A DNA stretch of 64,000 nt from Sutcliffiella horikoshii (GTDB lineage: Bacteria; Bacillota; Bacilli; Bacillales; Bacillaceae_I). The translations under genes were made by a program, and so were the position numbers. Below are positions 5,301 through 56,656 of this stretch, one piece after another (the stretch's first letter is position 1; every line of letters begins with the position of its first letter). Below the pieces are notes generated by a model. The model had not been told where the DNA came from. It worked only from the letters and a program-made list of their open reading frames with translations, and made no database searches. The stretch is taken from contig NZ_CP020880.1 in NCBI RefSeq assembly GCF_002157855.1, positions 2,356,001 through 2,420,000 of the forward strand, written 5' to 3'.

Positions 5301-5429
5301 CCGTTGATTTCCGTTCCAGGCGCTTCGCTTGCCTGCGGGCGGTCCGGGAGCCTCCTCGTCTTCGCCTGCGGGGTCTCCCCTGTCCCTTCCTCCCGCGGGC
5401 GTCTACGCGCCTTCCACTTCAATCAACAA
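5301..5429 (-). repeat. Fold-back repeat, type B (half of a B/A pair)
   Basis: About 129 bp with complementary ends (CCGTTGATT / AATCAAC), and inner arms AGGCGC/GCGCCT and GTAGACGCCC/GGGCGGTCC-like. Same family as the copies at 42632 and 54683. Together with the type A copy at 5516 it forms a divergent pair with a spacer of about 86 bp. Apparent ORFs across it are products of the GC-rich repeat. The preceding 5122-5300 holds nothing recognisable. Confidence 0.85.
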
Positions 5430-5515
5430 GGTGACCTCATTTATCGAAGGGTATTTGAAAAGAAATCTGATCGAGTTACCGCAATAAGCATTAACGAATT
5501 GTTTAAGTAACTTTC

Positions 5516-5644
5516 AGCTGTGGATTGGAGCAAATGGCGTAGACTCCAGCGGGGGAGTAACGGTAGGTTGAGACCCCGCAACGAAGTGAGGAGGCTCAAG
5601 CACCGTCCCGCGGAAAGCGAAGCTATTTGCGGAAAGGAACAGCG
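5516..5644 (+). repeat. Fold-back repeat, type A (half of a B/A pair)
   Basis: About 129 bp. Arms AGCTGTGGATT / ACAGC, then GCAAATGGC / GCTATTTGC, CCAGCGGG / CCCGCGG, and ACGGT..TTGAG / CTCAA..ACCGT give a nearly continuous hairpin. Confidence 0.85.
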
Positions 5645-5687
5645 GCGATTAATCAACCAACCAAAATTTTTTAGCTTTTTTCAGCTT

Positions 5688-5722
5688 AAAAAGGACCGGG
5701 CAGTCTATGCCCGATCCTTTTT
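5688..5722 (-). terminator. Intrinsic terminator of ypmS
   Basis: AAAAAGGACCGGGCA / TGCCCGATCCTTTTT, symmetrical, with T-tract on the minus strand. Confidence 0.85.
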
Positions 5723-5726
5723 AGAG

Positions 5727-6314
5727 TTAGTCCTCAACAGGGACTAAGAGTTTGAATTCGATGTCGTCGCGTTCGACATCGAATTTTGTGAATTCCACTT
5801 TTGTATCACTTTGTAGCTCGAGTTCTTGCAAAGAAACATAGATGCTCTGTTCATTCGGTATAATCTTTACCCATGGTGGTAATGGATAATTATCACCGAC
5901 ATACTTTAAAACCATGGACACAGGTACTTGCAGCCTTCCAATCGACATGGAGTCCTGTTTTAATACAACATCGCCGTTTTCTTGCACTTCAGGAATAAAT
6001 GTCATGGTCAGGGGAATGTCTCTTTCAAACACAGTCATTTCACCCCTGAGCTCCACTCTGTCAGTCAGTACCACTTCATAATTCAAAGGGCGTCGCGTTT
6101 CTCTTTCCAAATAATAACGTATAAGTTCATTTAAGTCTTCTTTATCAGACTGGATGGTAAATGCGACCCTTTTCCGATCATCTTCCCTGCTGGATAGGTT
6201 GAATTTCGAGTGTTTAGGCAATAGCACCAAAAATATAGCGATTCCGGCAATCAAAATATTTATAACAAGCAAGCTTAGAAATGCCGTTTTCCAATTTATA
6301 ACTTTTTTCACCAT
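5727..6314 (-). CDS. ypmS: YpmS-like membrane-anchored protein (DUF2140)
   Basis: 195 residues with one N-terminal membrane helix (about residues 8-30, TAFLSLLVINILIAGIAIFL) and an extracytoplasmic beta-rich domain (FTIQSDKEDLNELIRYYL, VVLTDRVELRGEMTVF). This layout and the position directly after the SGNH lipoprotein gene match B. subtilis ypmR-ypmS. ATG 6314 is preceded by GGAGAGG; an in-frame GTG lies 12 bases further upstream. Function is unknown; it probably acts at the outer membrane face together with YpmR. Confidence 0.85.
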   Translation of the reverse strand: MVKKVINWKTAFLSLLVINILIAGIAIFLVLLPKHSKFNLSSREDDRKRVAFTIQSDKEDLNELIRYYLERETRRPLNYEVVLTDRVELRGEMTVFERDIPLTMTFIPEVQENGDVVLKQDSMSIGRLQVPVSMVLKYVGDNYPLPPWVKIIPNEQSIYVSLQELELQSDTKVEFTKFDVERDDIEFKLLVPVED

Positions 6315-6325
6315 AATCCTCTCCA

Positions 6326-7228
6326 CTACTCTTCTTCTAACATCTCTTCCAATGAGGTCTCCTCATTAAATCGTTTTATTTCATTAATAATGTTAATACC
6401 TATTAATTGATACCCTTTTTGGTTCGGATGAAACTGATCATCATCAAGTAAATTCTCTTCAGGGTCAATAAAGATGTCCTGTATAGGTACATAGGCTGTA
6501 TTAGGATATTCATCAAGAATTGAAATGGTTGTAGCATTCCAATTAGTCACTACCTCATTCATTTCTTCTATTTCTTGAAAAAAGTGATAAAAAGGATTGA
6601 ATAGTCCTACAAGGTAAATTCTGCTGGAGTCATTATGTTTTCTGACTTCCCCTAGGACGCTATCCAGTCTTTCGGCATAAAATCCTTGTTCTTTATCAAA
6701 AAGTGAAAAGGTTAAATCTAAGAAATTTTCACGGATAACCTTCATTAAATCATTTCCGCCAACTGTCATGAAGATCACATCGGCTTCTGCAAGAGCCTCT
6801 TGCACTTCTGGGTCTTCAAGTCTTTTTAAAAGATGATTTGTACGGTTTCCCCTGACACCAAGATTGGTGACACTTACGTTATCGATATATGGTTTAGCTT
6901 CATAATGTTGCTTGATAATGGAAGTGAATCCGCCTTTTTGAGACTCATCTCCAACCCCTTGCGTAAGGGAATCGCCGAAAAAGACCAACTTAAAGGACCT
7001 GTCAAAAAACTCTTCCGTAACTTCCTCTTTTTCTTCGATATTTATTATAGTATTCTGATTCTCCACAGACTCTTCTTTAAAAAAATCTTTAAAAAGTTTT
7101 CTCTCACTTTGGCTTTCTCTTCTTTCTTTCGCTTTTTCTAAAACGTAACTGGAAGAATTTTCTGCAGAACAACTAACCATACTAATTATTATAAGGCCCA
7201 GTAAGGCTATTTTCCAAAATTTAACCAT
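6326..7228 (-). CDS. ypmR: SGNH/GDSL-hydrolase lipoprotein YpmR
   Basis: 300 residues. The signal peptide ends in the lipobox SMVSC, so the protein is predicted to be lipid-anchored outside the membrane. The SGNH catalytic blocks are all present: block I FFGDSLTQG (Ser nucleophile), block II GVRGNR (Gly), block III VGGNDL (Asn), and block V DDDQFHPN (Asp/His). This is a family of esterases and acyl or peptidoglycan-sugar deacetylases; the substrate is not known. It overlaps the ypmS reading frame by a few bases and the two should be co-transcribed. Confidence 0.92.
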   Translation of the reverse strand: MVKFWKIALLGLIIISMVSCSAENSSSYVLEKAKERRESQSERKLFKDFFKEESVENQNTIINIEEKEEVTEEFFDRSFKLVFFGDSLTQGVGDESQKGGFTSIIKQHYEAKPYIDNVSVTNLGVRGNRTNHLLKRLEDPEVQEALAEADVIFMTVGGNDLMKVIRENFLDLTFSLFDKEQGFYAERLDSVLGEVRKHNDSSRIYLVGLFNPFYHFFQEIEEMNEVVTNWNATTISILDEYPNTAYVPIQDIFIDPEENLLDDDQFHPNQKGYQLIGINIINEIKRFNEETSLEEMLEEE

Positions 7229-7348
7229 CAGGCATTCTCCTTATTGTTTTTAAGGAATTAAATCGTTACTTACATTATACGACAGTACACTTTTTATAAC
7301 ATACTATAGTGTATTTTTCAAAAATGAAAAGGTTAGGAGGCTTTCAAA

Positions 7349-7492
7349 TTGAAGGAAAAAGAAATACTTGCTTGCAACGAAGAGGTTTCCAAAGAGCTCT
7401 TTTCAAAGGAATTACATGTAATAGTCACTGATGGATTGAGTGCCAGCAGAGAAGAAGAGCTTGATAAAAAACAAAAGGATCACTCGGAATAA
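7349..7492 (+). CDS. Small acidic protein, unknown
   Basis: 47 residues from TTG 7349, which has an excellent TAGGAGG site eight bases upstream. The sequence is charged (KEKEILACNEEVSKELF, SASREEELDKKQKD) with one Cys and no membrane segment. It is convergent with the sco gene and ends inside the shared terminator. I do not recognise it; the strong ribosome site is the main reason to call it. Confidence 0.6.
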   Translation: MKEKEILACNEEVSKELFSKELHVIVTDGLSASREEELDKKQKDHSE

Positions 7493-7505
7493 AAAAGAGT
7501 GATCC
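7477..7505 (-). terminator. Terminator of sco gene
   Basis: GGATCACTC / GAGTGATCC stem; the minus strand continues with TTTTGTTTTTT. Confidence 0.75.
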
Positions 7506-7516
7506 TAACTACTTCA

Positions 7517-8092
7517 TTATTGACTTAAGAGAATTTCTACATGTTCCAATATTTCCTCGTAAGGGACATCCAACCCGTCATAACTTTTTATGATTGTCCC
7601 TTCTTGGTCAATTAAATAAAAACTGGTTCCATGGACTACTTCTCCTCCGTTTTTGGGTTTAGCTACAATTGTTTTGAAGTTATCCATTCCAAACGCTTCT
7701 ATCTCTTCTTGAGTATAGCCTGTTAAAAAGTCCCAAGAAGTATAATCCGCTTCAAAGTTATCTCCAAACTCCTTAAGTACTTCAGGACTATCAACTTCAG
7801 GATCAACAGAGAAAGATAGAAATTGAACATCTAATTGTTCTTCATCGGCCATCCTTTGCAACCTGGCCATGTTGGCCGTCATGGGAGGACAAACAGTTGT
7901 ACAGTTGGTAAAGACCAAATTTGCGACTGTGACTTCACCTTTCAAATCCTCTAAACTAACCTGCTCGTTATCTTGATTTATGTACTTAAAATTTGCCAGT
8001 TTCCAATCTGTAGTATCTGGTATATTACCACCACAAGCAGCCAGAATGACAGCAGATAATCCAATTACCAGTATTTTACTATAATTTAACAC
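7517..8092 (-). CDS. ypmQ: SCO1/SenC-family copper lipoprotein (YpmQ/BsSco)
   Basis: 191 residues. Signal peptide with lipobox LAACGG, then a thioredoxin-like fold. The copper ligands of Sco proteins are present: CxxxC in FTNCTTVCPPM and the later His in VVHGTSF. Sco delivers copper or redox equivalents for assembly of the CuA site of cytochrome c oxidase on the outer membrane face. A GTG start at 8092 has AAAGGTG at good spacing; an in-frame GTG at 8101 is the alternative. The gene lies upstream of ypmR-ypmS, the same order as in B. subtilis. Confidence 0.93.
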   Translation of the reverse strand: MLNYSKILVIGLSAVILAACGGNIPDTTDWKLANFKYINQDNEQVSLEDLKGEVTVANLVFTNCTTVCPPMTANMARLQRMADEEQLDVQFLSFSVDPEVDSPEVLKEFGDNFEADYTSWDFLTGYTQEEIEAFGMDNFKTIVAKPKNGGEVVHGTSFYLIDQEGTIIKSYDGLDVPYEEILEHVEILLSQ

Positions 8093-8220
8093 GTGCTTCA
8101 CCTTTTTTCACTTGGTATTTTCCATTTTCATTCAAATCGTACCATTTATCACTGGGATATAAAAGGCACTGCTCATCAAATTCATAAAAAAATCACATTT
8201 ACTACGCTGGAGGTATATAG

Positions 8221-9489
8221 ATGCGAAGAGAATCGGAGAATATTAGTATTTTTTCCATCACGTCTACTTCCTTTATTCTTGTGCTTGGAAATTCTATGCT
8301 TATTCCAGTGCTGCCTGAAATCCGTCATGATCTTCACCTGACTCAAGTACAAGCCAGCCTTATCCTATCGATATTTTCCATCGCGGGAGCAGTCACCATC
8401 CCTTTCATCGGCTATTTGTCAGACAGGTTCTCCCGAAAGCATATTATCCTTGCATCTCTTTTGCTTTATGGTATTGGCGGATTGGTTTCAGGTACAGCTT
8501 CCATCCTACAAACATCTTTTTCATTTGAGGGAATCATTTTTGGCAGGGTTCTTCAAGGGATAGGCTCGGCTGGTACAGCTCCAATTGCAATGGCAATAGT
8601 GGCAGATTTGTTTTCAGGAAGTAAACAGTTGAAGGTATTGAGTTTAATGGAGACAACCAATAGTATGGGGAAAGTAGTATCACCTTTGATTGGAGCACTT
8701 ATAGCACTGTTCATGTGGTATTATATTTTCTTTGTCTTTCCTCTTGCTTGCAGTATTTTGTTTATATTGTTCTATTTTTATGTTAATGACGAGGCTTCAT
8801 CTTCTGAAAAATTGGTTTTCAAGAAATATGTAAGCCATTTAGCAGGGGTTATGAAAGAGAATAAGTTTTATTTACTTACTAGTTATAGTGCAGGTGCACT
8901 TTGTCTTTTCCTGCTTTTTGGCATTTTATTTTATTCTTCTGACCGTTTGGAGAGTCAGTTTGAGACGCATGGATTTATGAATGGGGTTATACTGTCTTTC
9001 CCGCTTTTGTTTTTGACGGTTGCTTCTTTTCTTACTGGAAATGTAATTGGAAAGTTCAGCAACTACATCAATCGAATTCTTATTGTGAATTTTTTGCTTC
9101 TGAGTCTTTTTCTACTAGTGATAATGCTTAATGAAAGCCTTTGGTGGACAATTTTGATCATTTCTTTTATTAGTACTTCCATTGGTATTGTTTTACCATG
9201 TATGAATGCCATCATCACTAATTCTGTAAGAAAAGAAGCGCGAGGATTTGTGACGGCTCTGTACGGTTCGGTCAGATTTGTCGGTATAGCGCTTGGACCT
9301 ATTGCGTTTGGCTATTTTATGGAAGTCTCTATTTCCACGAAATTTATGTTATCTTCATTACTCTGCCTAATACAAGCCGTCCTTTGCTTCTTTTATTTAA
9401 ACAAGAAAGATAAGAACATTTCGTTTCAGACCATCATCAACTGGTTTTCCATATTCCACATACCATCAAGAAAAAAGCAAAGAGGCTGA
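8221..9489 (+). CDS. MFS drug/solute exporter (DHA1 type)
   Basis: 422 residues with 12 predicted membrane helices. Motif A between helices 2 and 3 is clear (GYLSDRFSRKHI). Helix 5 carries the antiporter motif C-like GKVVSPLIGALIAL, typical of proton-driven exporters of the DHA1 family. GGAGG stands seven bases before ATG 8221. It stands alone and diverges from the sco gene. The closest types are bacillibactin, multidrug or tetracycline-like exporters; the substrate cannot be told from sequence. Confidence 0.88.
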   Translation: MRRESENISIFSITSTSFILVLGNSMLIPVLPEIRHDLHLTQVQASLILSIFSIAGAVTIPFIGYLSDRFSRKHIILASLLLYGIGGLVSGTASILQTSFSFEGIIFGRVLQGIGSAGTAPIAMAIVADLFSGSKQLKVLSLMETTNSMGKVVSPLIGALIALFMWYYIFFVFPLACSILFILFYFYVNDEASSSEKLVFKKYVSHLAGVMKENKFYLLTSYSAGALCLFLLFGILFYSSDRLESQFETHGFMNGVILSFPLLFLTVASFLTGNVIGKFSNYINRILIVNFLLLSLFLLVIMLNESLWWTILIISFISTSIGIVLPCMNAIITNSVRKEARGFVTALYGSVRFVGIALGPIAFGYFMEVSISTKFMLSSLLCLIQAVLCFFYLNKKDKNISFQTIINWFSIFHIPSRKKQRG

Positions 9490-9512
9490 CTTTACTGTCA
9501 ACCTCTTTGTTT
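9474..9512. terminator. Bidirectional terminator between MFS gene and VWA operon
   Basis: AAAGAGGCTGAC / GTCAACCTCTTTG with T-rich tails on both strands; the MFS stop codon lies in the left arm. Confidence 0.85.
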
Positions 9513-12277
9513 TATCTACGTTTTCTGTTCTTTGCTTTTAACAGTTGATTCATACGATCCTCTGTCGCTTTTGTTTCTTTTGGTTTTTCTTCTGTTTCTT
9601 TTCGTGGTTTAAATTCTTTCATTTGTTCCATTTTCGGCTCTTCTCTTTTTACAGGTTGACTTGATATTAGTGGCTCTTTCTTTCTTTTAATTACAGGCGT
9701 TTTCCATTTTCTCTCTGATTTGACCTTTTCCTCTTTCTGCTTCCCTTTTTTCCAGAAGGCAAGGGGCATCAATCCAAACCTCCTTACAAAGATTTCAATT
9801 ATCAACAGGAAAAAAGCAAGGATGATAAAAGGCAGCCAAACCGTCTGAGATTGATACACATTTTTATGAAAAGGACGGAAGGCATCTTTAGGATCTTGTA
9901 ATAGCATTCCATACTGATTAGAAGCAATACTTTCAAGCAACTCCACATTTACAGGCCTTTGTTCAAATTCCGTGGAAAAAGGGACAACCATGCCGCTTGT
10001 AAAGGTAGAGACTGTCTCCCCTTCCTCTTCTTGTGTAATGTTGAGGAAGTAAATATCGGGAATGGCTGTAAATTCTACTTCGTACTGGCCAGGTCCCACC
10101 ATTTTACTTTTAGCGTCTTCTATAATCTGCCCCTTATTGTTTGATATGGATATAGAAACCGGCATTAATAGATCCTCAGTTGCTTCCACCTTCACAGAAG
10201 CTTTACCTCCATCAACGGAGGTAGTGATGTCATAAGCACCTTGCTCATAGGATGGCAATGACCATGTCACCATTTCGTTCCAAAAAGAGGTCCATTCTTC
10301 CCACGATGGAAATCCACCACTCCAGGCTCCGGAAACATCGGAGGTCCAGGCGATCGTTCTCCCAAGGCCGTAATTCATACGAGCGAGGATCGGGTCTTCT
10401 TTTTCACTTGATATGATCTGTTCTGCCCTGGATTTCAAGGTGGTTGCAATATACGTATTTAAAAACGGTGTCCCACTTTCAAATCTTTTGGACCATTCAT
10501 ATCCTGCATAGACAGTCGGTACATGCGGATTGTCTTCAATATATGTTTTGGTAGTAAGGGCGGTTTCTCTTGAAAGAATACTTGGTACTGCGCTAGCCTC
10601 ATATACTTCGTAAAACCTACCTGTTCCTATTTCTGCAAGTTCCTCCAACAGGGACGTATCTGCATCTCCACCGATCGCTACAGTGGATAATGTTACATTG
10701 TTCGTTAACCCTTCTTCGATGATTTCTTCATAAGGCCCATCATTGGATTGTCCATCGGTTAATAGAATAATATGCTTGCGTTTTAGGTCCATCTCATTCA
10801 ATTGCTGATAAGCCTGGTTTAGGGCTGGAAAAATATCTGTTCCACCACCCAATGCTGTTGAACGAATGGTTTCAATAACCTCATCTTTATTTTTGATCGG
10901 TTCTGTCTCAACGACTGCCCAAGCCTCCGTGTCAAACGCAATAAATCCAAATGTGTCTTCCTCTTTTAACAGTTCCACTGAACGAGCTGCAGCTTCTTTC
11001 GCTAAATCAAATTTTTCTCCCATCATACTTCCTGAACGGTCCAGTACAATGATTAAACCAAGTGAAGGAATTTCCTTTTTCCCTTTTACATCCATTTCGA
11101 CCGGTAGAATTTTCTCTATCGGTGTCTGGAAATATCCACCGAGACCATAGGATTCATTGCCTCCTGTCATGGTAAAGCCTACACCAAAATCCTTTACTGC
11201 GGTTTCAATTAGATCCATTTGAGTAGCACTTAATAAATGACCGGAAACATTATGGAAAATAATACTTTCATAAGCCAAGAAACCACTTAGTGTCGTCGGC
11301 AACAGGCTTGGATGGATGCGATCAATTTTCCAGCCGCTTGCATCTAGTGCGCGAAACACATTATCCCCCTCACCCTCTTGGTCGACCATAAGTACTTTAG
11401 GCTCTCCCGATACTTGTGTTAAAGAATGAGAGATATTGTTTTCCACAATTTCATCTGCTTTAGGAAAAATTTCTGCTTTAAATGTGTACAATCCAGGATC
11501 TGTTAATGGAATGGAATAGGAATAGTTATTCGACCCTTTTGCCACATCAACTTCTTCTTTTATAATGGTTTCATTTTTATGAGTGATATGCAGGGTGGCT
11601 GTTGTGTCCACATTGGCCTCTAAACCAATTTGGAAGGGGACCACTTCCCCTTCAAAGCTTGATTGTGGCGTATGAAAGGATTGAAGCGACACATCTTCCA
11701 CATATGGTGACTGAAAAGCCATGGCATCCATCTCTATATTTCTCCCTGAATAGAAGGTGGATTGCCTTGCACTATTCCCATTTGTCTCTACTCCATCAGT
11801 CATCAAAACAATTCTTCCTTTACGATCCTCCGGGATATAATTTGCAGCAAATTCCAATCCCTCTTCTATGTTTGTGAATTGAGAACTGTCATTTATAGAA
11901 AGTTGTTGAATCGTCTCTTGTTGATTGGTAAAGGAACGTTCAAGTTTCGGTTTTTCCGAAAACGTAACAATGCTATAACTATCTTCTTCTTTTTTTTGCT
12001 TGATTGCTTGATTAATCGAGGAAAGGATATCCCCTTCCATCCTTTTTACACTGTCGGACTGATCAACAAGAAAAACGGTATGTGTCCCATTTACAGAGGA
12101 AAGAAAAGATGGCATACATAACCCAAGTATCAGTAACAAATAGATAATGCTTCGTAAGGAGATGATCACGTACTCCTTTTTCCGCTTTGTTTTCTTCTTA
12201 CGGCAAAACAGAACAAGACTGATTAGGACCGGAATAAGGAATAAAAGCATGAGAGGGTGTTCAATTTGAAATTCCAC
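9512..12277 (-). CDS. Large VWA-domain membrane protein, last gene of MoxR/DUF58/VWA operon
   Basis: 921 residues. Two N-terminal helices (about 8-25 and 40-60) are followed by a degenerate VWA-like domain (VFLVDQSDSVKRM) with TDGVETNG. Next come a beta-sandwich region and a glutamine-amidotransferase-like segment (GFTMTGGNESYGLGGY). A full VWA domain near residues 400-570 has intact MIDAS DRSGSMMG, a GGGTD loop and LLTDGQSN. A C-terminal helix (LPFIILAFFLLIIEIFV) leads to a very basic, Glu/Lys-rich cytoplasmic tail. GTG start with GGGAGG. It overlaps the upstream gene by 17 bases. The VWA domain probably binds a partner protein under control of the MoxR ATPase. Actual function unknown. Confidence 0.85.
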   Translation of the reverse strand: MEFQIEHPLMLLFLIPVLISLVLFCRKKKTKRKKEYVIISLRSIIYLLLILGLCMPSFLSSVNGTHTVFLVDQSDSVKRMEGDILSSINQAIKQKKEEDSYSIVTFSEKPKLERSFTNQQETIQQLSINDSSQFTNIEEGLEFAANYIPEDRKGRIVLMTDGVETNGNSARQSTFYSGRNIEMDAMAFQSPYVEDVSLQSFHTPQSSFEGEVVPFQIGLEANVDTTATLHITHKNETIIKEEVDVAKGSNNYSYSIPLTDPGLYTFKAEIFPKADEIVENNISHSLTQVSGEPKVLMVDQEGEGDNVFRALDASGWKIDRIHPSLLPTTLSGFLAYESIIFHNVSGHLLSATQMDLIETAVKDFGVGFTMTGGNESYGLGGYFQTPIEKILPVEMDVKGKKEIPSLGLIIVLDRSGSMMGEKFDLAKEAAARSVELLKEEDTFGFIAFDTEAWAVVETEPIKNKDEVIETIRSTALGGGTDIFPALNQAYQQLNEMDLKRKHIILLTDGQSNDGPYEEIIEEGLTNNVTLSTVAIGGDADTSLLEELAEIGTGRFYEVYEASAVPSILSRETALTTKTYIEDNPHVPTVYAGYEWSKRFESGTPFLNTYIATTLKSRAEQIISSEKEDPILARMNYGLGRTIAWTSDVSGAWSGGFPSWEEWTSFWNEMVTWSLPSYEQGAYDITTSVDGGKASVKVEATEDLLMPVSISISNNKGQIIEDAKSKMVGPGQYEVEFTAIPDIYFLNITQEEEGETVSTFTSGMVVPFSTEFEQRPVNVELLESIASNQYGMLLQDPKDAFRPFHKNVYQSQTVWLPFIILAFFLLIIEIFVRRFGLMPLAFWKKGKQKEEKVKSERKWKTPVIKRKKEPLISSQPVKREEPKMEQMKEFKPRKETEEKPKETKATEDRMNQLLKAKNRKRR

Positions 12278-15948: not shown

Positions 15949-17538
15949 TTAATTTGCTCCCTTCGGATCCACTTCACTAAAGTATTGTTTGACGACATTT
16001 TCTAACTTTGCTGGCAATTGCATCCTATCAAGTGATTCCCTATAGGACTTTTCATAGGAAGAGAATACCTCTCCATACGGTCTAGCTTCCCCTCTTAAGG
16101 TCGGAGAATCAGGAGCATCTTCATATTCTGATTGTCCCTCTCCGGTTGGACCGCCATCTGTTTCATTTTGGATATCGCTTTGAACATTGGAGGGAACGGT
16201 AAAGGTTTGTTCACCTACACCAACACCAGCCCCAAGGCCTCCTCCTGCACCTTGACCTTGGCCTTGACCTAGGCTGCCTCCTCCTGCACCTTGACCTTGG
16301 CCCTGTCCTTGGCCATGACCCTGTCCTTGGCCTTGACCCTGTCCTTGGCCTTGACCTTGGCCTTGACCCTGTCCTTGTCCCTGACCTTGGCCTTGACCTT
16401 GGCCCTGACCTTGACCTTGATTTTGGTTTTGGGCAGTTTGATTTGCGGTAGGGTTGTTTGAATTAGATAAAGTTAGCTTTGAGGGGTTCAACCCAGCTTG
16501 CGACATCATCCCGTGTTGATTAGAAGCTGCTGCTTGGAGGGCATTTTGTAAAGCTTCCATATCTGAAAGAGCGGATATGTCCTGCAACATCTCCTCGAGT
16601 TGCTCTAATAATGCTTCCAGTTCCTCCTCAGATATTCCCTCCATATCCAAATTCGCTTGGTCTAAAAGGCTTTCCGAAAGTTCCGACAACTCTTTCTTCT
16701 CTTGGTCAGATAAGGAACCGATATTTTTTTTCATTTCATTAAGAAGTTTTTCTAGTTCCTCATTTTTTTTATTTAATGCAAGGTTCGCCAATGAATTATC
16801 TGGCTGATCTTTTGCAAGTTCTTTCAAGCTGTCTTCTTTTTCTTGAAGCTCTTTCATTTTTTCAGCTAAGTTATTTTCTTTTTCCATCAGCTCTTTCAAT
16901 AGCTCATCTGCATCTTTCTCATTTTTAAGATCTTTGAGCTCTTCTAACTCTTCGTTAATGCCTACGTTATCTTTTAACTCCTCGGCATTTTTTTTTACAT
17001 TTTCAAGCGTTTCCTCTACAATTTCACGTTCCGCCTCTACCGCCTCGGCCTCCTGCATTTTGGTGTTGGGAAACAAAATTAATAGGGTAATGGCGCAAAC
17101 GGTTAACAAGGTCATAAGTAATATTTTCGGTTGAAAATGTTTTAATTTTGCCTCTTTGATATCATTTTCTTTTCTCTTGAGATGGTGATAAGCCTCTTTA
17201 CGCTGTAGTTGTGCGACCAAGGAGGTATCCTTAACATAATCAAGGGCTGTGGCAAGTCTATCTTCTTCAAGAAATTCATCGGAATATTTTGCAGCATCCC
17301 ATGTTGAAGGTCTTTTTCTCCAGTAGAAGAGAAATACTGCTAAACAGACGCCTCCTGCTGACCAAAGGGCTTTTTCCAATAAGTACGGAGTTACGACAAC
17401 TCTAGCTACGATGAGCACACTTAAAAAGCTGACGCAAAATGCCAAGATGGCAAATTGCGTCTGTTTCGAAAGGCGTTGAAATCTGAGCTTTCTTCTGATG
17501 GAAATGAGAAACCTGATTATTTGATCGTTTTCCTTCAT
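15949..17538 (-). CDS. Membrane-anchored coiled-coil protein with Gly-Gln repeat tract
   Basis: 529 residues. Two or three membrane helices (about 28-50, 56-73, 138-158) are followed by a long Glu/Lys/Leu coiled coil (about 160-335). Then comes a low-complexity stretch of alternating Gly-Gln (about residues 371-432, encoded at about 16245-16430), and a short ordered C-terminus (FSSYEKSYRESLDRM, VKQYFSEVD). I know no named family. The coiled coil probably spans the cell wall region or links complex members. The repeat DNA is built of six-base CCTTGG/CCTTGA/CCCTGT units, so copy-number change would keep the reading frame. Confidence 0.8.
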   Translation of the reverse strand: MKENDQIIRFLISIRRKLRFQRLSKQTQFAILAFCVSFLSVLIVARVVVTPYLLEKALWSAGGVCLAVFLFYWRKRPSTWDAAKYSDEFLEEDRLATALDYVKDTSLVAQLQRKEAYHHLKRKENDIKEAKLKHFQPKILLMTLLTVCAITLLILFPNTKMQEAEAVEAEREIVEETLENVKKNAEELKDNVGINEELEELKDLKNEKDADELLKELMEKENNLAEKMKELQEKEDSLKELAKDQPDNSLANLALNKKNEELEKLLNEMKKNIGSLSDQEKKELSELSESLLDQANLDMEGISEEELEALLEQLEEMLQDISALSDMEALQNALQAAASNQHGMMSQAGLNPSKLTLSNSNNPTANQTAQNQNQGQGQGQGQGQGQGQGQGQGQGQGQGQGQGQGQGHGQGQGQGQGAGGGSLGQGQGQGAGGGLGAGVGVGEQTFTVPSNVQSDIQNETDGGPTGEGQSEYEDAPDSPTLRGEARPYGEVFSSYEKSYRESLDRMQLPAKLENVVKQYFSEVDPKGAN

Positions 17539-29391: not shown

Positions 29392-29488
29392 TATCATTGC
29401 CTCCGTGTGTGATTGTTTTTCGTCGAACACATTGTAACACGGACATTGATAATGGCCTTTCTTTTTACACAATTATATAGACTTAATC

Positions 29489-29957
29489 TGATTTCTCGTC
29501 ACTGATGTCTTCATAACGCCAATGAGGACTTCTCTCCTCCTGATTTCTCGTCACTGATGTCTTCAGAACGCCGATGAGGACTTCTCTTCTCCTGATTTCT
29601 CGTCACTGATGTCTTCAGAACGCCGTTGAGGACTTCTCTTTTCTTGAATTCTCGTCATTGATGTCTTCATAACGCCGTTGAGGACTTCTCTCCTCCTGAA
29701 TTCTCGTCATTGATGTCTTCAGAACGCCGATGAGGACTTCTCTTCTCCTGATTTCTCGTAACTGATGTCTTCATAACGCCGATGAGGACTTCTCTTCTCC
29801 TGATTTCTCGTCACTGATGTCTTCATAACGCCGATGAGGACTTCTCTTCTCCTGATTTCTCGTAACTGATGTCTTCATAATGACGATGAGGACTTCTCTT
29901 CTCCTGATTTCTCGTCACTGGTGTCTTCAGAACGCCGATGAGTATCTTTTCTTTTTC
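29489..29957. repeat. 52-bp tandem array 1, right part (nine units)
   Basis: Nine consecutive units start at 29490 with exact 52-bp spacing. They have the core GATTTCTCGTCACTGATGTC..TTCATAACGCC and then GATGAGGACTTCTCTTCTCCT. Each unit can form GTCTTCAT-N7-ATGAGGAC. The last unit decays. The units differ by a few bases each. The array is non-coding: 52 is not divisible by 3 and no long frame spans it. Confidence 0.95.
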
Positions 29958-30016
29958 CAATTTCTTGTCACCACCGAGGTGTTCATTCTTTTGATAATTT
30001 CCTAAAGAAAAAATAA

Positions 30017-34991: not shown

Positions 34992-35251
34992 CTTTCCTCA
35001 CCTTCTCTAGCTGTTTTGATCTTGTTGAGTAAGTAATTATCAGAAGATTCAATTCTATTATAATAGTATTATATCATCTTGTGCTTTAATTTGAATGACA
35101 TTTTTGTAATCTCTTCTTAATAAGAGTGATTAAATTTTTCCAGTCTACTTAACAAAAAAGCACTCATCCTCGAGTAACTGCCAAGATTAAGTCATTGTTC
35201 CAGATTCTTTGAGATATTGGCAGAACCTTACTTTTACAATTCGCCCTCTAA
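34992..35251. other. AT-rich region upstream of metalloprotease gene, no gene
   Basis: No reading frame with a ribosome site. Two TATAAT-like boxes near 35055-35075 on the minus strand could promote the metalloprotease gene but lack clear -35 boxes. Confidence 0.4.
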
Positions 35252-35490
35252 CGTTGTCACCAGGGGTCTTCTTGACGGCGATGAGAACTGCTCTTTGGCT
35301 TTTTTCTTGTCACTCAGGTCTTCATCACGGCGATGAAGACTTCTCTCCTCCTTTTTCCTTGTCACTCAGGTCTTCATCACGGCGATGAAGACTTCTCTCC
35401 TCCTTTTTCCTTGGCACTCAGGTCTTCATAATGGCGATGAAAACTTCTCTCCTCCTTTTTCCTTGTCACTCAGGTCTTCATGACGATGAT
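35252..35490. repeat. 52-bp tandem array 2 (about 4.5 units)
   Basis: Units CTTGTCACTCAGGTCTTCAT..CACGGCGATGAAGACTTCTC and so on, repeated with exact 52-bp spacing. Related to array 1 in core TCACTnnnGTCTTCAT and GATGARGACTTCTC. The unit hairpin GTCTTCAT-N7-ATGAAGAC is fully paired here. It lies between ypjQ and the metalloprotease gene. Confidence 0.93.
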
Positions 35491-35549
35491 ATAGAAGTAG
35501 CATGGAGACTATCTACCATTCAATTATTTAATAATTTCCTAAACAACAA

Positions 35550-38390: not shown

Positions 38391-38421
38391 GTTAATTTCC
38401 TCCTTTTATCACTTGTATACT

Positions 38422-38549
38422 GCAGTTGATTTCCGCAAATGGCGTTGCTTTCCCAGGGGCGCTGCTGGACCCTCCTCGGCTTCGCCTGTGGGGTCTCCAC
38501 CTAGCGCTATCTCCCTCAGGAGTCTTTGCCTTTTACTCCAATCAACTGC
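38422..38549 (-). repeat. Fold-back repeat, type C, single copy
   Basis: 128 bp with ends GCAGTTGATT / AATCAACTGC. Inner pairs AGCGC/GCGCT and CTCCTGAGGG-like/CCCTGGG keep pairing with different bases from type A. It lies between brxA and the cvfC-like gene. Confidence 0.85.
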
Positions 38550-38566
38550 TATGGAACTTAAAGCAC

Positions 38567-42251: not shown

Positions 42252-42418
42252 TAAATGTAACTCCCTTATTCGTTTGATTCCTTTTCATTTTAACATGTAA
42301 AAGTCATTATCTATACCATTTCGCAATGAATGTCATTTTATAAGTGTAACATATGGGGCATCACTTTCATAAAATGGGCTGAGTGTGCTTTATTACTTTT
42401 AGTTGTTGGTTATACACC

Positions 42419-42546
42419 GCTGTTTATTTCCGCAAGTGGCTTCGCTTTCCGCGGGACGGTGCTTGAGCCTCTTCACAACGCTTCAGGGGTCTCAATCTAC
42501 CGTTACTCCCCCGCTGGAGTCTTTGCCATTTGCTCCAATCCACAGC
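42419..42546 (-). repeat. Fold-back repeat, type A (half of an A/B pair)
   Basis: 128 bp, same type as 5516. Central loop reads ACCCCTGAAGCGTTGTGAGG in complement. Pairs with the type B copy at 42632 across a spacer of about 85 bp. The bases 42252-42418 before it hold no gene. Confidence 0.85.
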
Positions 42547-42631
42547 TAGGTTAAGAAACGTTAATTCTTTTCCAAACATCAAGATTAGATGATTTTCCAT
42601 TTTTGATAAACTACGTTGAATGAAGCCATCT

Positions 42632-42760
42632 TGTTGATTGCAGTGGAAGGCGCGTAGACGGCCGCGGGAGGAAGGGACAGGTGAGACGCCGCAGGCGAAG
42701 GCCGAGGAGGCTCACGGACCGCCCGTAGGCAAGCGAAGCGCCTGGAACGGAAATCAGCTG
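42632..42760 (+). repeat. Fold-back repeat, type B (half of an A/B pair)
   Basis: 129 bp; inner arms AGGCGC/GCGCCT and GTGAG/CTCAC. Preceded by CCATCTTGTTGATTG, conserved in all B copies. Confidence 0.85.
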
Positions 42761-42845
42761 GATTATCACGTATATTACACCAAAAAAGCTAACGGCTACG
42801 CCCGCTGGTTGCGGACGTTGCACATTAGCTAGAAAGGAGTAAGAA

Positions 42846-43097
42846 ATGAATTATCCTCGGATTATGAACGGTTCTCAAATTGGAACGGCCTGGTTTGGCA
42901 CTCATATTGTCCTAATTAAATGCAATTATATGACCAATCAAGTGGTAGCTGTTTTCAAAAGTGACCACGCACCCTTCGAACCAACTGCTAACAGCTGCGC
43001 TGAAACGTTGTCCAGGTACCTTAGTATTGGATATGCCTTAATTGGAGCCTACCCTCTTGATAATGAGCAAATTCAATATGTCCTTCAATATCGCTGA
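42846..43097 (+). CDS. Small hypothetical protein
   Basis: 83 residues with AAAGGAG upstream of ATG 42846. Sequence is ordered-looking (IGTAWFGTHIVLIKCNYMTNQVVAVF, AETLSRYLSIGYALIG) with no membrane helix and two cysteines. I do not recognise the family. It is convergent with the degV paralogue, only three bases apart. Confidence 0.65.
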   Translation: MNYPRIMNGSQIGTAWFGTHIVLIKCNYMTNQVVAVFKSDHAPFEPTANSCAETLSRYLSIGYALIGAYPLDNEQIQYVLQYR

Positions 43098-50787: not shown

Positions 50788-50793
50788 CACTCG

Positions 50794-51538: not shown

Positions 51539-51562
51539 TCTACATTCAGATCATTCTTTTTT
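51528..51562 (+). terminator. Terminator after paiB
   Basis: AAGAATGATC / GATCATTCTTTTTTG with an eight-base loop. Confidence 0.85.
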
Positions 51563-51594
51563 GTTGAGAATTTTCCCCAATAAAGTGAACCCTA

Positions 51595-51722
51595 GCTGTT
51601 GATTGGAGCAATAGGCTTAGACTCCTGAGGGAGATAGAGTTAGGTGGAGACCCCGCAGGCATAGCCGAGGAGGCTCCAGCAACTCCCCTAGGAAAGCGAA
51701 GCCATTTGCCGAAATCAACAGC
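51595..51722 (+). repeat. Fold-back repeat, type C, single copy
   Basis: 128 bp. Ends GCTGTTGATT / AATCAACAGC; inner GAGTT..TGGAG / CTCCA..AACTC; TCCTGAGGGAG / CTCCCCTAGGA. It lies between paiB and the ABC exporter promoter region. Confidence 0.87.
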
Positions 51723-51845
51723 GGTGTTTATATGAATTTTTTCTAAATCACATAAAAGAAATATCTTCCATATCCCCCTTAAAGTGTTTATAATAGTCTC
51801 TTGTTAGTGCTTTCATTTGGAAAGGATCAGGAGGTTGAAATCAAC

Positions 51846-52874
51846 ATGATTGAAGTGAAAAATATCAGTAAGCATTACCGGTTGTTCGAAAGAGATCCAG
51901 GATTATCTGGTGCGGTAAAAGCTTTATTTAAAAGAAAATATATAAATAAGACCGCAGTAAACGATATTAGCTTCACCATCCCAAAAGGTGAGATTGTAGG
52001 GTACATCGGGTCCAATGGAGCCGGTAAATCTACCACCATCAAAATGATAAGCGGGATTCTTACACCAGACGAAGGGTCTGTAATAGTAAATGGGATTACC
52101 CCTTATTCAGACAGAACCAAAAATGCTAAAAATATCGGGGCTGTATTCGGACAACGGACACAGTTATTTTGGGACATTCCCGTCCAAGAATCTCTTGAAC
52201 TATTAAAACATATTTACGAAGTTCCACAGGATGTGTATGAAAGAAATCTTGCAAAATTTAAGGAAGTATTAGATTTGGAAGCGCTTTTGCCGATTCCTGT
52301 CAGACAGCTTTCATTAGGCCAAAAAATGCGTTGCGAGCTTGCAGCTGCCTTTTTACACAACCCATCTGTTGTATATCTTGATGAACCGACCATTGGCTTG
52401 GATGCTTCTGTAAAAATTAAGATTCGTCAATTCATTAAACAAATGAACAAGGAACATCAAACCACAGTTATTTTAACCACCCACGATATGCAGGATATTG
52501 AGGAGCTTTGTCACCGCATTATCATTATCGATAAAGGTAGTGTCATTTATGATGGAAGCCTTCTATCTCTTAAGCAACAGACAAGATTTAACCGGACAAT
52601 CAAGCTTGAAATTGATTCCAATGACGGTTTCACCCTTCCAGCGACCTTGAAAACTTCTGTTCATTTAGAAATACCGGAGGAAGAACATCACTTTTTGCTC
52701 CATTTTAACAATACTGTTATTTCTGGCAGCGAAATTATGAAAGAGATAATGAGAGACTATCTTGTTCAAGATTTTACGATAACAGAGCTTGGCATCGAGA
52801 AAGTGGTACAGGAAATTTACGAACGGGGGCCAGAACATGCGGAAGTACTTGGAGCTGTTAAAGTCTCAAATTAA
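51846..52874 (+). CDS. ABC-2 exporter ATPase
   Basis: 342 residues from ATG 51846; AGGAGG lies 11 bases upstream. The start IEVKNISKHYRLF has the long insert before Walker A (GSNGAGKST) seen in exporters paired with ABC2_membrane_6 permeases. Signature LSLGQKMRC, Walker B VVYLDEPTIGLD, H-loop TTHDM. Accessory C-terminal domain of about 100 residues. Followed by two permease genes, the first overlapping. Confidence 0.93.
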   Translation: MIEVKNISKHYRLFERDPGLSGAVKALFKRKYINKTAVNDISFTIPKGEIVGYIGSNGAGKSTTIKMISGILTPDEGSVIVNGITPYSDRTKNAKNIGAVFGQRTQLFWDIPVQESLELLKHIYEVPQDVYERNLAKFKEVLDLEALLPIPVRQLSLGQKMRCELAAAFLHNPSVVYLDEPTIGLDASVKIKIRQFIKQMNKEHQTTVILTTHDMQDIEELCHRIIIIDKGSVIYDGSLLSLKQQTRFNRTIKLEIDSNDGFTLPATLKTSVHLEIPEEEHHFLLHFNNTVISGSEIMKEIMRDYLVQDFTITELGIEKVVQEIYERGPEHAEVLGAVKVSN

Positions 52875-53628
52875 AGTTGAGACAGCCTATCTCGCTTGGT
52901 ACTGGGCGGATGTTGTCTCTACTTTGCTCCGATTGGTCATTATGTACTTTTTCTGGGTGGCTGTCTTCCAAAACCGAACAGAAATTTCCTCCATTTCCTT
53001 TGAATCGATGATTACATATGTAGTAATCGCGATGATGCTAGAAAACTATGTATCAGGTGCAGGTAATGAGATGGCAAGAAATATTAAAAATGGCGATATT
53101 GCGTTGGAGTTATTAAAGCCTTATGATTACCTGACTAAGTTAATATTTATGGACCTCGGCTCTAAGGCAAACAGCTTTGTTCGTACGACCATCCCTATTT
53201 TTCTTGTTGCCAACATTTTCATTGGAATACAAGCTCCTGTTTCCTTCGAAGTTGCCATTTTGTTTTTGGCTAGCATGCTTGTTGGGATATTAATCGGTAC
53301 ACAAATTGACCTTATCATTGGCGTGTTAGCTTTTTGGACAGTCAATGTGTGGGGAGTGAGAGTATTACGTGAAGCTATCGTTAAGTTCTTTTCAGGAGCC
53401 CTCATACCACTAACCCTTTTTCCGGGTTGGTTTCAGGAAGTGAGCAGCTTCCTTCCTTTTCAGTCCATGATCTTCGTACCTGTAGCAATTTACACAGGTC
53501 AAATAAACATGGGTCCTGATGCCTTGATTGCCTTTGCAACCCAATTGTTTTGGCTAGCCGTCTTATTTGTCGTTGTTCGAGTTGTTTGGACTCAAGCAGT
53601 AAAAAAAGTAACCGTGTTTGGAGGATAG
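52837..53628 (+). CDS. ABC-2 permease subunit 1 (DUF990/ABC2_membrane_6 type)
   Basis: 263 residues from ATG 52837, after GGGGG; the start overlaps the ATPase end. Six helices; motif ENYVSGAGNEMARNIKNGDI followed by LLKPYDYLTKLI is typical of this permease type. It forms a heterodimer with the next gene product. The substrate is unknown. Confidence 0.9.
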   Translation: MRKYLELLKSQIKVETAYLAWYWADVVSTLLRLVIMYFFWVAVFQNRTEISSISFESMITYVVIAMMLENYVSGAGNEMARNIKNGDIALELLKPYDYLTKLIFMDLGSKANSFVRTTIPIFLVANIFIGIQAPVSFEVAILFLASMLVGILIGTQIDLIIGVLAFWTVNVWGVRVLREAIVKFFSGALIPLTLFPGWFQEVSSFLPFQSMIFVPVAIYTGQINMGPDALIAFATQLFWLAVLFVVVRVVWTQAVKKVTVFGG

Positions 53629-53631
53629 TCT

Positions 53632-54435
53632 ATGTGGAAAAAGTGTAAACGATATACATTCTTATACGGAAAATATTTTAGCAATCACTTAAAGGTGATG
53701 ATGGAGTATAAAGCAGACTTTTTCATCGGATTGTTCTCGGTCATGGTCCAACAATTCACTGCACTCTTTTTCTTGAAGATTGTGTTTGATCACATAGAAG
53801 TCCTAAAAGGCTGGACTTTTTATGAAATTCTTTTCATCTATGCCATTGCCTTTTTAGGTCGCTCCATCCATCATATTTTCTTCGACAATTTATGGACGCT
53901 TGGATGGCAGTATATAAGATCGGGTAACTTTGACAGACTCCTGCTGAGACCTGTGAACCCGCTTTTTCAAATTGTAGCAGAAAGAGTGCAGCAGGATGGG
54001 TTTGGACAATTAATTATTGGTGGGATTGTTCTAACGATTGCGAGTGTCAATTTGGAGATTGAATGGACTGTTCAGAGTCTGCTATTATTATTTGTTTTCA
54101 TTATTTCTAGTGGAGTCTTATTTGTAGCCATTAATCTGTTTTTCATAACATTTTCATTTTGGATGGTAGACAGTCTTCCTATTGTCGTTTCTGTGTTCCA
54201 GTTAAGCGAGTTTGCTAAATACCCTTTGACCATCTATCCAAAGGCTGTCACGTTGATCATTACTTGGCTCATTCCATATGGATTTACGGCATACTACCCG
54301 GCAACCTACTTTTTCGAAAGAGAATCCATGGTTGCAATGGCCCTCATCACCCCCGCTATTGCTGTGCTTTCCTTTGTCATTGCCTACTGGTTCTGGAACA
54401 AAGGAATTCGGGCATTTACTAGTACAGGGAGTTAA
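53632..54435 (+). CDS. ABC-2 permease subunit 2
   Basis: 267 residues, six helices. Similar family, with LWTLGWQYIRSGNFDRLLLRPVNPLFQIVAERVQ. GGAGG seven bases before ATG 53632. The two unlike permeases suggest a heterodimeric exporter of a lipid or peptide. A fold-back repeat follows directly. Confidence 0.9.
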   Translation: MWKKCKRYTFLYGKYFSNHLKVMMEYKADFFIGLFSVMVQQFTALFFLKIVFDHIEVLKGWTFYEILFIYAIAFLGRSIHHIFFDNLWTLGWQYIRSGNFDRLLLRPVNPLFQIVAERVQQDGFGQLIIGGIVLTIASVNLEIEWTVQSLLLLFVFIISSGVLFVAINLFFITFSFWMVDSLPIVVSVFQLSEFAKYPLTIYPKAVTLIITWLIPYGFTAYYPATYFFERESMVAMALITPAIAVLSFVIAYWFWNKGIRAFTSTGS

Positions 54436-54472
54436 AGACAAAAGCCAAGAAATTAGTTATTTGTGTATCACC

Positions 54473-54598
54473 GCTGTTCTTTTCCGCAAATGGCTTCGCT
54501 TTCCGCGGGACGGTGCTTGAGCCTCCTCACAACGCTTCAGGGGTCTCAACCTACTGTTAATCCCGCTGGAGTCTTTGCCATTTGCTCCAATCCACAGC
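54473..54598 (-). repeat. Fold-back repeat, type A (half of an A/B pair)
   Basis: 126 bp, close to the copy at 42419 including the ACCCCTGAAGCG centre. Its partner B at 54683 is split by an IS1182-family element. Confidence 0.85.
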
Positions 54599-54682
54599 TA
54601 GAAATAACTAGAACAAAAAATTTATGGTGTTCCGTTAACTCATTTAGAGTTTTTTTAAAAACCTTGGTCAATGGAGTAACCT

Positions 54683-54726
54683 CGTTGATTGTAGTGGAAG
54701 GCGCGTAGACGCCCGCGCAACGAAGG
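54683..54726 (+). repeat. Fold-back repeat, type B, left fragment
   Basis: CGTTGATTGTAGTGGAAGGC, then GCGTAGACGCCCGCG and the target repeat CAACGAAG. Interrupted here by the IS1182-family element. About 25 bp that other B copies have before CAACGAAG are missing. Confidence 0.8.
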
Positions 54727-54792
54727 AGGCCACTGAAAAACTATAATTATTTTTGAATGAAAAACATTCAGAAATGAGATTCACAAAAAAAG

Positions 54793-54831
54793 GGGCAACT
54801 TTTTCTCCGAAAAGGATAAAAAGTTGCCCTA
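54793..54831 (-). terminator. Terminator of IS1182 transposase
   Basis: AGGGCAACTTTTT / AAAAAGTTGCCCC read on minus strand, then CTTTTTTTG. Confidence 0.85.
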
Positions 54832-54847
54832 TAAACGTTGTACTTTA

Positions 54848-56302
54848 CTATTTTTCATTTATTAGTTTTAGTATTCTCTTTAGGTTGACAGCGAATATCG
54901 CTGTGGCACCTTGTACCTCCATACCTAATAGACCCGCGGAGGAGGCTGTATCATACCCGTGTCTATGCTTTAGTTCACTGTTTTTCGCTTCAATCTTATA
55001 TCTGGATTTCGCCTTTTCTTTAAAACCTTCGGTATTTTGAAATTCCTCCTGCTCTTTATGTTCTGTTGATTTTATAGTAATAGAGTATGTTCTACTTTTT
55101 GCACCTTCTGTATAACAACCTTCTTTGAAAGGACAGACCTTACACTTTTCGATATCAAAGTAATAGGTTTCACGTCGGTTTTTCGCCACATTTTTCTTGC
55201 CTTGTCGTCTTAACTTAAATGCCAGGTGTCCCGCCCTACATACATACATGCCTGCATCCTTATTAAACTCAAATTCATCCTCTTTTGTACGAGTCCCTTG
55301 AATAACAGGATTTAATTTAGAGATGAGTGCTATATTATTCTCTTTTGTGTAGGAGATATTATTTTTTTCTGAGTAAGCGGTATCTCCAATGGCTGTATCA
55401 ACTTCCATCCCAGCTTTTACGGTTTTCTCAATTAATTCAGGAAGGTATTTCCCATCACTTTTTTCACCTGTTGTAATAACTGCAGCTGTAATAATACGTT
55501 CTTCACTTATTGCGATATGAGTTTTAAATCCGAAAAAAGAGGAGTCAGCAGTTTTATGTCCCTTGCGAGCATCTGGATCATTGGAATAACTTATTTGTTC
55601 TGTGTAATCTTCCACAACTTCTTTCAGTATATTTAACTTCTCCCTAACTGCTGGTATAGAAGCAACTTGCGGGATTTCATCTACCGTATCAATCACTTTA
55701 CGGCAATAAGCTAATTCCTCTTCGACATCATTAGATGTCGTCTTCTGTGGTAACTTTGATTTTAACGATTCGTCTATCTGGTAAATAGCTCTTCTCACAT
55801 TTTTTGATTTTTCTTGTAGAAATTCAGTCGCGGACTTTTGATTGTATCGAGCTTTTGAATGGGTGGCATCTATTATTATGGTATTGGTTTTTATGATTCC
55901 TTTTTCTAATGCAATCTCAACTGTCTTCTCTATAAGCATATCTAATAATCCCACGTCTTTAAGACGGAGCTTTCGAAATTTCGTTAATGAACTTGAATCA
56001 ATGACACGATCTTCTGGAGCCATCTCGAGAAAATACTTAAATGACATATCGTATTGGGATCGATCAACAACATCAACATCTGACAAATCATAAATAGATT
56101 TTAACAACAAGTATTTGAACATACGAATAGGCGGGATAGCGTTACGACCATTATCCAAACAGTATTTTGTTTTTAGTTCATCAAGAATAAAAGAGAAATC
56201 TACTAGTTCATTTATTTGACGAAGCATATTATTTTTGGGGACTACGATATCATATATCGCTGAGAATGGGCTAAGGTTAAAGGACTCTTGATTAGAAATC
56301 AT
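54848..56302 (-). CDS. IS1182-family transposase
   Basis: 484 residues, complete. DDE-type: IIIDATHSKA (D), DTAIGDTAYSEKNN (D), and late E in the YKIEAKNSELKHRHG block. The CxxC zinc-like motif CKVCPFKEGC is typical of the family. AGGTGG stands before the ATG. No frameshift or stop, so the element may be active or only recently silenced. Confidence 0.95.
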   Translation of the reverse strand: MISNQESFNLSPFSAIYDIVVPKNNMLRQINELVDFSFILDELKTKYCLDNGRNAIPPIRMFKYLLLKSIYDLSDVDVVDRSQYDMSFKYFLEMAPEDRVIDSSSLTKFRKLRLKDVGLLDMLIEKTVEIALEKGIIKTNTIIIDATHSKARYNQKSATEFLQEKSKNVRRAIYQIDESLKSKLPQKTTSNDVEEELAYCRKVIDTVDEIPQVASIPAVREKLNILKEVVEDYTEQISYSNDPDARKGHKTADSSFFGFKTHIAISEERIITAAVITTGEKSDGKYLPELIEKTVKAGMEVDTAIGDTAYSEKNNISYTKENNIALISKLNPVIQGTRTKEDEFEFNKDAGMYVCRAGHLAFKLRRQGKKNVAKNRRETYYFDIEKCKVCPFKEGCYTEGAKSRTYSITIKSTEHKEQEEFQNTEGFKEKAKSRYKIEAKNSELKHRHGYDTASSAGLLGMEVQGATAIFAVNLKRILKLINEK

Positions 56303-56417
56303 TTGGATACCACCTAAAACTTTTTATAAAAATATTATAAAACAAAAAAGCAGAAGAAAGTTGTAATTTAAACATTCTTCTGCTTAATTAAGTACGAATT
56401 GTACATTCAATTTTTAT

Positions 56418-56544
56418 CTTTTGAATGGAGCAAATGGCGTAGACTCCAGCGGGGGAAGAAGCGACATTGTTGAGACCCCGCAACGAAGTGAGAAGGCTCA
56501 AGGTCGCCCCGCGGAAAGCGAAGCCATTTGCGGAAATCAAAAGC
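56418..56544 (+). repeat. Fold-back repeat, type A, nested in IS1182 element
   Basis: 127 bp. Ends CTTTTGA / TCAAAAG, inner GCAAATGGC / GCCATTTGC, CAGCGGG / CCCGCGG, GCGAC..TTGAG / CTCAA..GTCGC. Paired bases differ from other A copies but stay complementary. Confidence 0.87.
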
Positions 56545-56590
56545 GGTGTCTTAACAATATCTAAAATTAAGAACTTTTTCAGTGGCCTCC

Positions 56591-56656
56591 AACGAAGTGA
56601 GGAGGCTCTCGGACCGCCCCGCAGGCAAGCGAAGCGCCTAAAACGGAAATCAACTG
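56591..56656 (+). repeat. Fold-back repeat, type B, right fragment
   Basis: Continues the B copy interrupted at 54726: CAACGAAGTGAGGAGGCTC, then ACCGCCCCGCAGGC, AAGCGAAGCGCC, and ends AAATCAACTG. Confidence 0.8.

Follow-up and report, generated by a model that had tools for sequence, protein, structure and literature searches.

We have analysed a multicopy family of fold-back repeats in a 64,000-bp stretch of the Sutcliffiella horikoshii chromosome (the window; positions 2,356,001-2,420,000 of 4.28 Mb) and in related genomes. The repeats are probably non-autonomous mobile DNA hairpins, similar to miniature inverted-repeat transposable elements (MITEs) or repetitive extragenic palindromic (REP) sequences, which serve as landing pads for insertion sequences (IS). 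Copies are present in one and absent from another of closely related genomes, with clean insertion sites for four composite units; they reside between genes, mostly after stop codons or terminators; and the hairpin tips serve as targets of an IS of the IS1182 family. Each element would be one long imperfect hairpin, of type A or type B, spread by at least three vehicles: solitary A hairpins, 210-215 bp MITEs in which A lies between the ends of an IS1182-family IS, and 350-450 bp B-A units in which the two types lie head to head. The arms would remain complementary because folded DNA is the substrate of recombination enzymes, and the tip would offer an IS an insertion site at which no gene is disrupted.

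Hairpin copies in the window

Copies were located by profile search with two models, A and B, corresponding to the two middle-stem types that a sequence-only reading of this DNA had distinguished and that proved to be real. That reading listed ten repeat starts, all of which match by profile search; two of them (54683 and 56591), however, are halves of a single copy, as the matches at 54680 and 56597 represent one B hairpin split by an IS, so that the window holds nine hairpins, six of type A and three of type B, rather than ten. The A hairpin at 56412 lies inside the 1,864-bp IS which splits this B hairpin at its tip. The features are as follows.

5303-5431, minus strand: type B hairpin that forms the left part of a unit with A 5512, B-A head to head (profile match 131 bits; among the top-40 B list)
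5512-5651, plus strand: type A hairpin of the A2 subfamily, forming the right part of the unit with B 5303 (94 bits; DNA fold z -3.5)
5688-5722, plus strand: hairpin of terminator-like form, AAAAAGGACCGGGC..GCCCGATCCTTTTT, similar to the 3' tail found in other B-A units (read from the sequence)
38417-38553, minus strand: solitary type A hairpin (134 bits; the same place in genome G007 is shorter and the hairpin absent)
42411-42550, minus strand: type A hairpin of the B-A unit with B 42629 (91 bits)
42629-42759, plus strand: type B hairpin of the B-A unit with A 42411 (133 bits; a near-identical span served as B query)
51591-51730, plus strand: solitary type A hairpin (152 bits; DNA fold z -6.7)
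54467-54603, minus strand: type A hairpin of the B-A unit with the split B (95 bits)
54680-54725, plus strand: left half of the split type B hairpin (profile match 54680-54726), ending in the target duplication CAACGAAG at 54718-54725
54726-56589 (1,864 bp), minus strand: IS1182-family IS with ends GAGGCCACTGAAAAA and inverse, in the tip of the B hairpin (five full-length genome copies with the same ends)
54848-56302, minus strand: transposase gene, 484 aa (NF033551, E 4.5e-107; Pfam DDE_Tnp_1 and DUF772)
56412-56552, plus strand: type A hairpin carried within the IS and located upstream of its transposase gene (78 bits; in all five IS copies)
56590-56655, plus strand: right half of the split type B hairpin (profile match 56597-56655), beginning with the target duplication CAACGAAG at 56590-56597

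At the locus of the first B-A unit (5303-5651), which lies near the terminus, the order is B-A here and A-B in genome G010 (stretch L078; the G007 stretch L074 was also compared), reflecting either an inversion in place or a second insertion.

Insertion of an IS1182-family element in hairpin tips

The transposase scores 358.9 bits against the NF033551 model of the IS1182 family (cut-off 270), which places the IS in that family. Five full-length copies encoding 100% identical proteins are present in the genome, bounded by the conserved terminal inverted repeats. Insertion at inverted repeats has been reported for some IS1182 members; here, all five copies lie in A or B tips, flanked by 8-9 bp duplications (CAACGAAG three times, CAACGGAG and GCTTGCGCC), and relatives lie in other hairpins. 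The A hairpin upstream of the transposase gene is present in each of the five, the IS therefore bringing a new target along. A copy in genome G008, whose protein is 84% identical, likewise lies, flanked by a duplication, in an A or B tip and bears an A hairpin. A 77% identical relative in G009, without the A hairpin, was judged by eye to sit within the loop of an inverted repeat resembling a terminator, flanked by a 9-bp duplication; since this relative uses a different hairpin loop, shape rather than one sequence seems to be sought. The tip sequences hit by the IS and its derivatives also differ among themselves. A match to this transposase is detected in only 7 of the 16 genomes of the genus.

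Derivatives of 210-215 bp with the same IS ends occupy the tips of other A or B copies, in G010 two insertions deep. As is typical of MITEs, they are non-coding and have their end repeats in common with the IS, and duplications are seen beside such units. In 3.36 Mb of DNA, 12 spans with GCCACTG ends were found, including three full IS copies and two spans that overlap within a nested array; halves of a broken A or B flank 11 of the 12. The twelfth (L207, a copy of L003) was judged by eye to lie, with a 9-bp duplication, inside another short inverted repeat. Because of the shared ends, the duplications and the nesting, a putative IS1182-mediated movement of the GCCACTG subset is supported. In three stretches from other genera (L385, L386 and L389), the same terminator-like hairpin was seen by eye on either side of IS1182-family copies, the arrangement that duplication of the entire stem-loop on insertion would leave.

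Pairing and compensatory changes

The sequence-only reading had proposed that pairing is preserved through matched changes, and this was borne out in both types, far above shuffled controls. Counted on structures predicted from the same alignments, which favours those structures, type A (69 copies, 70 having passed the length filter and one short copy being omitted) has a standard pair in 97.7% of cells and a double change at 11 of 26 pairs, with none of 500 shuffles reaching any of five measures, and type B (50 copies, 51 having passed and one short copy being omitted) is paired in 97.9% of cells with a double change at 13 of 31 pairs and none of 500 shuffles as good. When partners are slid, pairing falls to 40-50% in A (1-3 columns) and to 32-43% in B. 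At least three standard pair types are present at eight pairs within A. Folded singly as DNA, four A copies lie far below their shuffles (z -6.7, -3.5, -4.3 and -3.6); the single B copy tested, at 42629, is not distinguished by energy alone (z -0.87), as 39 of 200 shuffles fold equally well. The description of a multicopy fold-back family, rather than simple junk, is supported.

The matched changes had further been taken as a mark of selection on structure. The changes are real but alone are no proof of selection, because part of them separates subfamilies, some large double-change columns splitting A1 from A2, and because palindrome correction can copy changes between arms. Such correction, by template switching, can transfer a change from one arm of a hairpin to the other.

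Tip sequences, for example GCAACGAAGTG, TGAAGCGTTGTG and GCAGGGCGTAGCCC, are found as whole cassettes in both the A and the B alignments, which suggests exchange of tips between the two types. Ten B matches, which may include one locus met repeatedly in related genomes, lack the tip through a common internal deletion (model ~40 to 93), a pattern that would fit the spread of a short B in its own right.

Abundance, placement and orientation

A spaced chromosome sample together with the window, 1,247,585 bases or 29% of the chromosome, contains 150 elements. Type A contributes 67 full and 6 split copies plus 11 fragments, and type B contributes 47 full and 9 split copies plus 10 fragments. The 129 non-fragment copies extrapolate to ∼440 per chromosome. 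Of 93 classified elements, none is located within a gene, though 78.6% of the sequence is called coding, the calls being crude (open reading frame (ORF) and codon usage) and ORFs covered >30% by an element having been removed before counting. The upstream gene is on the same strand for 22 of 25 B-A units and for 34 of 42 solitary A; among solitary B this holds for 12 of 14 strong and 10 of 12 weak copies. The median distance from a same-strand stop codon to the start of the element is 68 bp for B-A units and 43 bp for solitary A.

The sign of the GC skew flips between stretches at 2.00 and 2.13 Mb, and the first ORF of the chromosome, recognised by sight of its sequence, presumably resembles DnaA. 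In the sample, A points with the replication fork in 23 of 25 B-A units and in 33 of 44 solitary copies. Among the best 40 of 260 B matches, 39 point against the fork, as the head-to-head layout with A predicts; the pure replication bias of B which these matches suggested was rejected, as in the even sample solitary B has no bias (15 of 30) and orientation also follows the upstream gene. Genes themselves are mostly co-directional with replication (840 of 1,062), so that the directions of replication and transcription are inseparable. The discordant cases (same gene strand but against replication, 2 B-A units and 4 A; opposite gene strand but with replication, 3 B-A units and 1 A) do not decide which of the two causes the orientation.

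Head-to-head B-A units

In the sample, 30 of the 56 full or split B are solitary, and 26 lie head to head with A, forming units of ∼350-450 bp. Over the 3.36 Mb, part of which was chosen by B matches, 75 of 82 neighbours <200 bp apart are head-to-head B and A, 63 of these being spaced 60-100 bp; nine head-to-head B/A pairs that are 262-3906 bp apart are candidates for a longer, autonomous B-gene-A unit. A strict hairpin-plus-T-run lies within 75 nt upstream of 40 of 59 distinct B-A units, compared with a mean of 0.15 and a maximum of 1 in the shuffled control; several of the remaining 19 resemble longer or weaker terminators by eye, and a few are without any. A 3' tail like GGACCGGGC..GCCCGG followed by T's, a pattern fitted after the units had been seen, is retained in 19 of the 59, about one third. 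In four filled/empty comparisons (L006, L173:10263, L190 and G007 24399), insertion occurred directly after the T run, and no target duplication beyond the T's was seen at these four clean sites. At L056 the shorter allele retains a remnant of the B-A unit, and the difference there is therefore a deletion. End repeats shared with an IS were not recognised in B-A units. Abundant extragenic palindromes, often in inverted pairs, as in REPs and the REP doublets forming hairpins (REPINs), are thus also a feature of this family.

Other vehicles and distribution

Comparison of 37 G000 loci with both flanks in G007 identified 14 that are >90 bp shorter there, and 7 of 30 G007 loci are shorter in G000, some of these length differences being partial or nested rather than empty sites. 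By eye, six Neobacillus B copies lie inside variants of AGGCTGTGTTAA ends, at least three loci of other genera have GGCTCTGTTAA-like ends, and a weak B copy of the present genome lies within a unit with GGCTGTTTTC ends that is absent in G007. Several end-repeat types, and forms with unrecognised ends, are therefore present on one hairpin core.

With a profile built on 41 A and B copies (E up to 0.001), matches were obtained in 148 of 199 genomes from the order, and in 77 of 97 genera; matches per genome were counted to 16, higher counts being read as at least 16. Among the matches listed for an exact 28-base B pattern are Sutcliffiella, Mesobacillus, Neobacillus, Peribacillus and Bacillus records. 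One B copy used as query matches six plasmid records of Priestia, Peribacillus and Bacillus badius and has no match in phage records.

Relation to known systems

Hairpin targeting by IS1182-family members is already known. According to passages of PMC5678879 and PMC4923244, IS1272 and TnSha1 of this family target inverted repeats or terminator hairpins with little sequence preference, and IS1272 is reported without target duplication and with loss of the target hairpin; tip duplication is drawn as a possible route, pathway c, in PMC5678879. The IS described here has the DDE transposase of the IS1182 family and the hairpin targeting in common with them, and differs in the 8-9 bp tip duplication and in carrying a copy of its main target hairpin, a feature of which those passages make no mention. 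MITEs such as Bcr1, RUP and NEMIS, as covered in sections of PMC3733652, are similarly short, non-coding, palindromic and intergenic, and one subset here has IS end repeats; the hairpin core, however, bears several end-repeat types and also none that is recognised. The REP/REPIN systems with REP-associated tyrosine transposases (RAYTs) outlined in parts of PMC3116915 and PMC2817692 resemble this family in their abundant extragenic palindromes, in the inverted pair with a spacer and in the presence of a RAYT in the genome, whereas the hairpin here is 130-140 nt, compared with 20-40 bp given for a REP in PMC3733652, no repeat lies beside the RAYT gene, and repeat-rich genomes occur without a Y1 transposase match. 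Bhal-1 of Bacillus halodurans (size 74, copies 36(32)), compared by description only from a portion of PMC2267715, is likewise an intergenic structured repeat of a related organism. The sequence-only reading knew no published name for the family, and none was found in Rfam or in a literature search.

Alternative explanations

That reading had left the role as structured RNA or DNA hairpin substrate. The DNA half gained support, as the IS and its 210-215 bp derivatives insert in differing tips; the RNA half gained little. A function as RNA, in which selection would have retained inserted hairpins that terminate the upstream mRNA, stabilise its 3' end or direct its processing, is unlikely, although the covariation in A and B, the short distance of solitary A from a same-strand stop codon and the shared strand of the upstream gene for both solitary A and B-A units would all be expected. 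The same is true of G-U departures from pairing, which on the strand of the hairpin itself mildly outnumber A-C departures: the ratio is 35:20 in A and 23:17 in B, or 19:11 (A) and 12:5 (B) with pairs predicted on both strands, and another count, which favours the strand used for prediction, gives 30:13 and 16:6. This excess is small, however, and is shared by both types, even though their orientations to the gene in B-A units are opposite (A sense, B antisense); a terminator is already upstream of 40 of the 59 units; and Rfam has no match in the window at gathering score and none in 42300-42900 at E up to 1. A DNA role is favoured because landing in the tips requires DNA that is folded, or that at minimum presents the tip; an RNA function is unsupported, though a secondary RNA effect on the upstream message may exist. 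Palindrome correction within the hairpin, combined with subfamily history and without selection on structure, would account for the columns separating A1 from A2 and for the tips shared by A and B as whole cassettes; as a complete account of the matched changes it is improbable, given the eight A pairs with at least three standard pair types and the insertions that track the tip, the fold or its tip therefore being used by something.

Compatible with the landing-pad explanation, and possible though doubtful, is a REPIN-like nature of the B-A unit, and perhaps of solitary A, moved by a chromosomal RAYT through one-strand insertion near terminators without duplication; for the enzyme that moves both, a single-strand-DNA transposase of this kind is the first, if tentative, candidate. 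The inverted pair of related palindromes with a conserved spacer and the four clean sites without duplication beyond the T run point to it, as does the strong replication orientation of the best 40 of 260 B matches and of A in B-A units, but orientation tracks genes as well as replication, the discordant cases are undecisive and solitary B has no replication bias. Among the 16 genus genomes, the 11 with strong B are precisely those that have a RAYT at least 87% identical (the G014 copy of this gene has an internal stop), while the other five, with RAYT identities of 63%, 61%, 39% and 38% or no match, have only weak B, RAYT matches being found in 15 of the 16 overall; this pattern follows phylogeny, which alone could explain it. 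Order-wide, a RAYT (E <1e-20) is present in 98 of 148 hairpin genomes and 21 of 51 others (p 0.003), yet ten genomes with at least 13 hairpin matches are without a Y1 transposase match (among 20 of 40 Y1-negative genomes). A RAYT gene flanked by its repeat is typical of REP/REPIN loci; this classic arrangement was not seen in 12 RAYT loci, which have no A or B match with 1.5 kb included on each side. A single-copy RAYT gene (G000:C1:4005830-4006423; L375) lies close to a GGGGTCTGACCCC inverted repeat. Some group II intron reverse transcriptases also favour terminators, and B-A units could be retroelement derivatives spread by such an enzyme, as insertion is directly after terminator T runs in the direction of transcription. 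This is very improbable, and a group II intron reverse transcriptase was rejected as the mover, since an RVT_1 match is absent from 6 of the 16 genus genomes, four of which (G006, G008, G010 and G014) have strong B.

Several observations weigh against mobile hairpins serving as landing pads. Most solitary A copies examined are without recognisable end repeats, and the IS therefore cannot be shown to move them. An IS1182 match is rarer in genomes with the hairpin (90 of 148) than in others (41 of 51; E up to 0.001), and both RAYT and IS1182 matches were lacking in 11 genomes that have at least 13 hairpin matches. The IS that lands in the tips may also be an opportunist, uninformative on the hairpin's own role. 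An obligatory order-wide dependence of the hairpin on RAYT or IS1182 was rejected, as genomes with the hairpin and neither enzyme occur.

Mobile hairpins that serve as landing pads may, we tentatively suggest, form part of an unnamed order-wide DNA hairpin system, in which a terminator-following class of mobile B-A units, oriented with transcription and replication, carries its own terminator and inserts without duplication, and in which the tips are landing pads, defined by their structure, for an IS1182-family IS that itself carries such a pad, producing nested arrays. If true, hundreds of intergenic palindromes per genome in many Bacillales would receive a structural name, an IS would be known that inserts harmlessly by using DNA hairpins as both landing site and cargo, and the insertions would report naturally on the extrusion of hairpins inside living cells. 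Which enzyme moves the B-A unit linked to terminators is a testable question.

Other repeats in the window

Arrays of a 52-bp repeat are present at three places in the window (29436-30007, 35247-35506 and 63126-63645). A dense block of short repeats at 16213-16443, within an ORF at 15949-17538, is probably a repetitive protein stretch.

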